From positions 1 to 34,540 of the IMG/VR virus record IMGVR_UViG_3300049596_000320: a stretch of 34,540 nucleotides of DNA; one strand, 5' to 3'. The notes under the pieces were generated by a model, which saw nothing but the letters and a program-made list of their open reading frames with translations, ran no database searches and was not told the origin of the DNA. The DNA is from a virus. The position numbers were made by a program, and so were the translations under genes. This document shows positions 16,262 to 16,714 of this stretch, in pieces; the stretch's first letter is position 1, and each line of letters starts with the position of its first letter.

Positions 16262-16277
16262 AAAATAAAAATAGGGT

Positions 16278-16310
16278 TCAGAATTCCTGCTTGTCGCATA
16301 AGCAGTTCAT
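16278..16310 (-). CDS. Candidate leader peptide (10 aa) upstream of the DUF4373 gene
   Basis: ATG at 16308-16310 is preceded directly by TAGGGGGAGG, a rare strong Shine-Dalgarno in this genome, and encodes MNCLCDKQEF before TGA at 16278-16280. Codons 2-8 form stem-loop A (16287-16305), so translating ribosomes would unfold it. The DUF4373 start follows 17 bases later. This layout resembles leader-peptide control such as RepY-RepZ in IncI/IncB plasmids. It is too short to be called a gene on coding evidence alone. Confidence 0.4.
   Translation of the reverse strand: MNCLCDKQEF
16287..16305. promoter_or_regulatory. Stem-loop A with a loop complementary to stem-loop B
   Basis: CTGCTT (16287-16292) pairs with AAGCAG (16300-16305), a perfect 6-bp stem closing a 7-base loop GTCGCAT (16293-16299). 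In the minus-strand transcript the loop reads ATGCGAC. This is the exact reverse complement of the loop of stem-loop B 46 bases away, so a 7-bp kissing interaction can form. Confidence 0.6.
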
Positions 16311-16331
16311 CCTCCCCCTAATATTGTTCTT

Positions 16332-16352
16332 AAACTAAATGCGACTTAGTTT
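16332..16352. promoter_or_regulatory. Stem-loop B with a loop complementary to stem-loop A
   Basis: AAACTAA (16332-16338) pairs with TTAGTTT (16346-16352), a perfect 7-bp stem around the 7-base loop ATGCGAC (16339-16345). It spans the stop codon of the DnaA-like gene. The loop is fully complementary to that of stem-loop A. A weak T-run on the plus strand could also make it a plus-strand terminator, but no plus-strand gene lies there. Confidence 0.6.
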
Positions 16353-16714
16353 TTGTTTGCAGACAAATATAAATTATATTCATCTAATTCCGTACTAATT
16401 TGTAAGATTTTTTCTTTGTACCATACCTCTGTTTCCATCAAATCTCGACATTTTTTAATAGAATACAAGGTTGTAGTATGATGAGTAATCCCTACATAAT
16501 TTGCAATTTCCGTTAGGCTTAATTTAGTATATACTCTTAATAAATATGCTGCTGCCTGTCTGCCAAAAACAGTTGTTTGTTTTCTGTTTCTAACTTTAAT
16601 ATCAGTATTAAACATTTCTTCAACCATATCAACTATATTAGTTGGTTTAATTGCTTTGTTAATACCATACTTTCGCATTTTATTAGCTTCATATATCTCT
16701 TTTTGTAATGACAT
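16346..16714 (-). CDS. DnaA domain IV-like DNA-binding protein (122 aa)
   Basis: The C-terminal two thirds match the DNA-binding domain IV of the bacterial initiator DnaA. GRQAAAYLLRVYTKLSLTEI (residues 51-70) corresponds to the basic loop and first helix; NYVGITHHTTTLYSIKKC (72-89) corresponds to the signature GxxDHSTVLYAxKKI, with the Asp replaced by His. The AAA+ domain of DnaA is absent. It may bind DnaA-box-like sites at the phage origin or recruit or compete with host DnaA. It lies two bases before the next gene, within the replication run. Confidence 0.75.
   Translation of the reverse strand: MSLQKEIYEANKMRKYGINKAIKPTNIVDMVEEMFNTDIKVRNRKQTTVFGRQAAAYLLRVYTKLSLTEIANYVGITHHTTTLYSIKKCRDLMETEVWYKEKILQISTELDEYNLYLSANKN

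Follow-up and report, generated by a model that had tools for sequence, protein, structure and literature searches.

The RNA I and RNA II transcripts of ColE1 pair with each other and carry fully complementary 7-nt hairpin loops, and the put RNA of phage HK022, with a pair of hairpins close to a phage promoter, is an antiterminator that targets RNA polymerase. In the structured 5′ leaders of pT181/pIP501-type replication genes, a terminator-like hairpin lies before the ORF and kissing hairpins have interior loops; the pT181 attenuator is a precedent for partial read-through from such a leader into the gene (PMC4878617). Long-range loop pairing also occurs in the leader of the IncI/IncB replication gene repZ, where a pseudoknot joins a loop to the start region. 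Units in which a promoter, a structured RNA, a terminator, and a gene follow each other are known from AbiF (RF03085) and type III toxin-antitoxin systems, with partial read-through in AbiF RCd22 (PMC12373285). We analyzed a 34,540-nt stretch of viral DNA, hereafter the window, and found in it an element that resembles each of these systems in part. In contrast to ColE1, both partner loops lie within one leader, for which no role as a replication primer is known. Compared with the pT181/pIP501 type, the partner loops again reside in the same RNA, a scan for TAnnTTTG boxes revealed no antisense signal, and the element occurs in phages of Bacteroidota, also ahead of non-replication genes. It differs from the repZ leader in pairing loop to loop, 28 to 33 nt before the start, and in lacking a conserved leader peptide with a ribosome-binding site as well as an antisense signal in the same TAnnTTTG scan. 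The AbiF and type III leaders have another fold and sequence (no Rfam match) and are followed by the cognate toxin, whereas here the next genes encode replication proteins, endonucleases, or a methyltransferase that are not mutually homologous. Finally, unlike put, with which no sequence relation was shown, the element has a U-run before the ORF and kissing loops. Its features in the window are as follows.

16346-16714, minus strand: upstream gene for a small protein with a DnaA C-terminal HTH domain (Pfam PF08299, E 1.2e-13)
16364-16371, minus strand: promoter box TATATTTG (TAnnTTTG) of the Bacteroidota -7 type, within the 3′ end of the DnaA_C gene
16332-16352, minus strand: hairpin P1, stem AAACTAA/TTAGTTT, with the 7-nt loop L1 GTCGCAT (16345-16339)
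16320-16331, minus strand: A/U-rich linker AAGAACAATATT with a conserved tail of about AACnnUAUU
16273-16319, minus strand: long hairpin P2/P3 with purine-rich internal loops
16319-16316/16276-16273, minus strand: helix P2a, AGGG/CCCT
16313-16309/16284-16280, minus strand: helix P2b, AGGAT/ATTCT
16305-16300/16292-16287, minus strand: helix P3, CTGCTT/AAGCAG
16299-16293, minus strand: loop L3, ATGCGAC
16262-16272, minus strand: terminator-like U-run AUUUUUAUUUU, directly 3′ of P2/P3 and reaching from the stem to the start codon
15578-16261, minus strand: downstream gene for a Lin1244_N (DUF4373-type) phage replication initiation protein of 227 aa

The original prediction had described two perfect hairpins with exactly complementary loops, and we verified both base by base on the minus strand: stem B, AAACTAA and TTAGTTT around GTCGCAT, spans 16352-16332, stem A, CTGCTT and AAGCAG around ATGCGAC, spans 16305-16287, and the two loops are exact reverse complements. 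The window contained a single pair of perfect hairpins of this kind (at least 6 bp, 7-nt loops, both within 60 nt, loops fully complementary), and none appeared in 200 first-order Markov simulations of it. Folding showed that stem A is the mere tip of a longer hairpin with the outer helices UAGGG/CCCUA and AGGAU/AUUCU, which includes the predicted G-run string GGGGGAGG (16318-16311). A 10-codon ORF was likewise present at 16310-16278. P1 holds the stop codon of the DnaA_C gene, and the TATATTTG box (16371-16364) precedes stem B by 11 nt. The 227-aa product of the downstream gene matched Pfam PF14297 (E 2.3e-9) and PHROG 2562, replication initiation protein (E 3.1e-15). The upstream product, a lone DnaA C-terminal DNA-binding domain protein (16346-16714), is a possible regulator of the promoter in the 3′ end of its own gene.

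To collect relatives, we used the DUF4373 and DnaA_C proteins as queries, which yielded dozens of viral contigs; in most close relatives, both hairpins lay within the 130 nt ahead of the replication gene. Further protein, profile, and pattern searches widened the main set to 89 unique elements. When relatives were found by protein alone, 79 of 168 unique upstream regions contained the element, versus 5 of 33,600 shuffles, and the regions without it belonged mostly to distant homologues from other hosts. The element was present in 45 of 50 phage records, mostly as one copy each. All elements came from metagenomic viral contigs or from one MAG. A search of INPHARED found none in isolated phages, where the sole short DNA match (MT836381) was due to chance, and the host genomes searched (299 of the order and 395 of the phylum) lacked the element, save for two contigs of one Chitinophagaceae MAG that are probably phage. 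Some of the search patterns contained the stem base and the U-run, so the constancy of these parts is partly ascertained in the loci concerned.

We then evaluated whether the helices and the loops covary. Among 43 aligned elements, standard pairs occupied 99.4% of cells versus 68.2% in shuffles, 19 of 23 pairs showed two-sided changes, and the covariation score was 0.775, compared with 0.173 after shuffling and at most 0.175 with the partner slid. Two-sided changes affected all 5 modelled pairs of P1 and 5 of the 7 loop-loop pairs, the remaining 2 being invariant. Thus, the compensatory changes sought in relatives were found in all helices and between the loops. As the first finder required complementary loops, we used two tests blind to loop-loop pairing, in both of which this pairing is free of ascertainment. 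A covariance model without the loop-loop interaction retrieved exact 7-nt loop complements in 83/83 correctly oriented elements, comprising 12 pair types, whereas loops drawn from elements of unlike type were fully complementary in 0.1% of draws. A pattern for the P2/P3 scaffold with free loop letters located a P1 with the exact complement in all 35 elements that had enough upstream sequence, and in 17/17 when newly fetched contigs were considered alone. Covariation and both loop-blind tests thus support a conserved pairing of the two RNA loops ahead of the replication gene, as predicted, and from these sequence comparisons we consider it nearly certain that the RNA folds with kissing loops.

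The geometry of the pairing was equally constrained. The loop starts were 45 to 49 nt apart in all 89 elements, and complementarity ended at the loop edges, where the neighbours were T.T in 68/89 and A.A in 70/89, which fits loop-loop kissing and not an extended duplex. Both loops nearly always had U as their second and A as their sixth letter. On the gene-sense strand, P3 contained 47 G.U cells against a single A.C cell; as these numbers would be inverted for the opposite strand, selection acts on the gene-sense RNA (or on that DNA strand). P2a stayed GC-rich and followed by T's despite changes in sequence (GGGG/CCCC, GCCC/GGGC, GGCUC/GAGCC, GGAUC/GAUCC). The long hairpin has two symmetric internal loops whose conserved letters suggest tandem G.A pairs. 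By eye, neither a hammerhead nor a kink-turn fitted the GAUGAA/GGAUUC internal loops, because these are symmetric and probably contain tandem G.A pairs and because P2b is Watson-Crick paired.

Twelve 7-nt loop pair types and one 8-nt pair, TCCGTACA/TGTACGGA, were recurrent, and the latter followed the same complementarity rule, as did a larger-loop variant such as CTTCTGAC with GTCAGAAG. In another class of variants (L328, L343, L349, L358, L377, L395, L407, L414, and L432), the P1 loop has 14 nt and the loop-loop complement 8 to 9 nt; these elements were located ahead of small genes of unknown function or of a DUF6291 protein. Leaders that had diverged further, in which a strong stem and a T-run come before the ATG, preceded DUF1376-like genes in L114, L116, and L131; by eye, complementary loops were kept in L114 (ATGCAG/CTGCAT) and L116 (GTGTCCG/CGGACAC). 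In L211 (1253-1356), from a contig binned to a Sphingomonadaceae MAG, P1 was lost while P2/P3 and the gene were kept.

The 10-codon ORF and the G-run had been taken for a leader peptide with a Shine-Dalgarno sequence, in a switch of the IncI/IncB type in which translation of the peptide opens the stem and a pseudoknot drives translation of the initiator. The architecture of this one sequence is indeed similar, but the relatives did not sustain this reading. The homologous ATG was absent in 35 of the 89 elements, and elsewhere the ORF measured 2 to 60 codons and shared neither a frame nor a peptide. The G-run forms one side of a covarying stem and is replaced in relatives by GGCUC, GCCC, GGGUC, or GGAUC; many relatives have no Shine-Dalgarno-like string. 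In the window, the ATG abuts GGAGG with a spacer of 0, and is therefore poorly placed for a Shine-Dalgarno start; ribosomes of Bacteroidia generally do not recognize Shine-Dalgarno sequences (PMC9976891). The pairing joins two hairpin loops and not a loop with a sequence beside the rep start, and the antisense strand showed no enrichment in promoter boxes (TAnnTTTG type only; 7/86 versus 9.1% in shuffles). In addition, the element stands ahead of genes other than replication initiators. Together, these results refute an IncI/IncB-type switch as the conserved mechanism and leave it next to no chance of operating at this locus.

To define the transcription unit, we compared the regions flanking the element. 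Of the 89 elements, 85 had a TAnnTTTG box no more than 50 nt ahead of P1, often 2 to 5 nt before the stem, whereas the rate in shuffles was 4.1%. Since this motif is the -7 element of Bacteroidota promoters (PMC7366714), P1 probably lies at or near the RNA 5′ end. On the other side, loop 3 was separated from the ATG by 28 to 33 nt in the 89 elements, with the terminal U-run about 10 nt ahead of the start codon. Four alignment columns of the U-run were T in 43, 43, 43, and 42 of 43 rows, and the 14 nt before the ATG contained 7 to 11 T, versus 3.65 T and 6.37 A in control ORFs of the same phages (n = 1045). In some variants, the start was 9 to 18 nt past the T-run, which still adjoined the stem. 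A GC-rich stem and a conserved U-run, as expected for a pT181-type terminator, were seen, but a terminator-pattern scan was negative, the hairpin going unflagged because P2a has just 4 to 5 bp before an internal loop.

The genes behind the element were mutually unrelated. They comprised at least 6 kinds of replication protein (among them initiators of the HTH_36 and DnaD-like kinds, Lin1244_N and DUF1376-like proteins, and a primosome-like DUF6291 protein), endonucleases of the NUMOD4/HNH and GIY-YIG types, and an N6/N4 methyltransferase, inserted in L007 between the element and the initiator. Gene type and loop type were not tied together. Conversely, L040 (2890-2916), L041 (2890-2916), and L042 (1879-1905) had the TATATTTG box and a DUF1376-like gene, with the ATG 16 nt after the box and no leader. 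These three loci represent a natural deletion of the whole leader; as promoter box and gene are retained, the leader appears to be a regulatory add-on that is not needed for basal expression.

Loop identity changed on nearly constant scaffolds, and pairs of elements that show this were common. L171 and L185 differed at 2 of about 75 scaffold positions, yet 3 of the 7 loop pairs were changed, on both sides. An identical P2/P3 core carried three distinct loop pairs in L330, L336, and L405, and a fourth in L347 with two core changes. The loop type of L046 was another pair with its two loops exchanged. On a tree of 36 downstream proteins, loop type changed at least 16 times, and identical proteins could carry differing types. 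This switching is partly whole-element exchange by recombination and partly change in place, and its occurrence on near-identical scaffolds hints at a role in specificity. Three contigs (L319, L320, and L321) contained two elements, one ahead of a replication gene and one ahead of an HNH gene, and the loop pairs differed in all three. The copies ahead of the NUMOD4/HNH homing endonuclease genes were of the GTGAGAT/ATCTCAC type (L319, 7439-7532; L320, 6262-6355; L321, 3933-4026).

Based on comparative sequence evidence, we consider it likely that the element regulates the next gene in cis. It would be a 5′ leader RNA specific to phages, about 90 nt long, whose transcription would start at the TAnnTTTG promoter just upstream of P1. 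The RNA folds into P1 and the long imperfect P2/P3, with full pairing of the two 7-nt loops. P2/P3 ends in the U-run, right ahead of the next start codon, and the leader would limit expression of the gene that begins there, acting in cis. Transcription attenuation at the U-run appears to be the best single mechanism, and we give it close to even chances: kissing would set how readily P2 closes while RNA polymerase sits on the U-run, so that some transcripts would end there and others would extend into the gene behind, be it for replication or for an endonuclease. Attenuation is favored by the covariation in all helices and loops, the loop-blind tests, the compensated switches, and the sense-strand wobble bias, by the promoter box in 85/89 elements, the fixed spacing to the start codon, and the U-rich tract, by the upkeep of a GC-rich P2a followed by T's while the sequence varies, by the presence of the same leader ahead of many unrelated genes, by the leaderless relatives, and by the precedents for a promoter, structured RNA, terminator, and gene with partial read-through. 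Against it, the terminator-pattern scan missed the hairpin, the constancy of the U-run is partly ascertained in some loci, and no antiterminator pairing was identified among the folds considered. If P1, the kissing helix, and P2/P3 stacked in line, the 12-nt linker would have to span roughly 33 stacked layers (a rough estimate), which would put tension on the kissing interaction and on P2a closure. Kissing may then hold P2a open, causing antitermination, or may bend the structure.

The U-rich tract reaches the start codon and so could also serve translation. Translational control ranks next after attenuation and is possible but rather unlikely: a kissing-stabilized hairpin 9 to 14 nt before the start, within the 30S footprint, would block or position ribosomes, and the U-rich spacer would help ribosomes to bind in a group whose initiation does not rely on Shine-Dalgarno pairing. 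The narrow range of distances between loop 3 and the ATG (28 to 33 nt), a spacer rich in U and not in A, and the properties of Bacteroidia ribosomes (PMC9976891) are consistent with this reading. However, the T-run adjoins the stem even where the start is 9 to 18 nt beyond, which better fits a terminator, and leaderless relatives exist. The loop switches would fit another function, in which terminated leaders would pair with nascent leaders of other copies or of co-infecting phages, each RNA being its own antisense and specificity being set by loop identity. The repeated changes of type on the protein tree, including between identical proteins, the switches on otherwise identical cores, the different loop pairs in all three two-element contigs, and the near-fixed U2 and A6, which recall U-turn loops in antisense RNAs (PMC4485353), argue for such a sensor of dosage or incompatibility. 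Nevertheless, pairing in cis should outcompete pairing in trans, geometry allowing, and some switches are whole-element recombination exchanges, making the sensor distinctly improbable. We regard as speculative and improbable the broader proposal of a mobile phage regulatory RNA that unites sense and antisense in one molecule, whose loops would pair in cis and, in trans, with leaders of the same type, counting gene dosage and marking phages by a switchable loop identity, like plasmid incompatibility groups. The two hairpins directly after a phage promoter, in about one copy per genome, recall put and would be compatible with an antitermination RNA working through RNA polymerase on the operon behind it; yet the terminator-like U-run beside the ORF, the copies ahead of single endonuclease genes, and the kissing loops, for which put RNAs are not known, make this very unlikely. 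We find it hardly credible that the element acts as DNA, as a single-strand origin, a recombination site, or a protein-binding palindrome: its location in replication modules and the exchange, among relatives, of the initiator domain that follows speak for this, but the wobble is strand specific (47 versus 1), a promoter box lies directly upstream, the distance to the ORF start is fixed, and copies precede endonuclease genes.

A search of Rfam 15 with the window and 31 related loci gave no family at the gathering score for the element, just tRNAs elsewhere in three of them and otherwise chance-level matches. In the literature on kissing RNA in phages of Bacteroidetes, we found no matching description. 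Structured-RNA candidates from microbiomes include one phage-linked palindrome in Bacteroidetes (PMC8040213). The RNA family, the cis loop-loop design, and the switching identities appear to be new, whereas structured leaders, attenuators, and kissing loops as kinds are already known from plasmids (PMC4878617). The element represents a phage RNA class absent from Rfam, with exceptionally clear loop-loop covariation and common to many unrelated replication and homing genes. Its naturally occurring kissing-loop variants, compensated and set in nearly fixed scaffolds, are ideally suited to the study of kissing loops in cis, and the fast, coordinated switching of loop identity makes a role in incompatibility or dosage sensing directly testable. 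A regulatory function would reveal how replication genes are controlled in phages of a group that initiates translation without Shine-Dalgarno sequences.

Replication proteins encoded downstream of the element (L332, 5181-5795, and others) had varied N-terminal domains and a shared C-terminal part (EYWCEPxKxGKLRYELEKFF...), and the point where they adjoin the RNA element may be a boundary of recombination. The N-terminal part of the L332 protein was 45 to 48% identical to proteins of Pseudomonas and Lysinibacillus phages.
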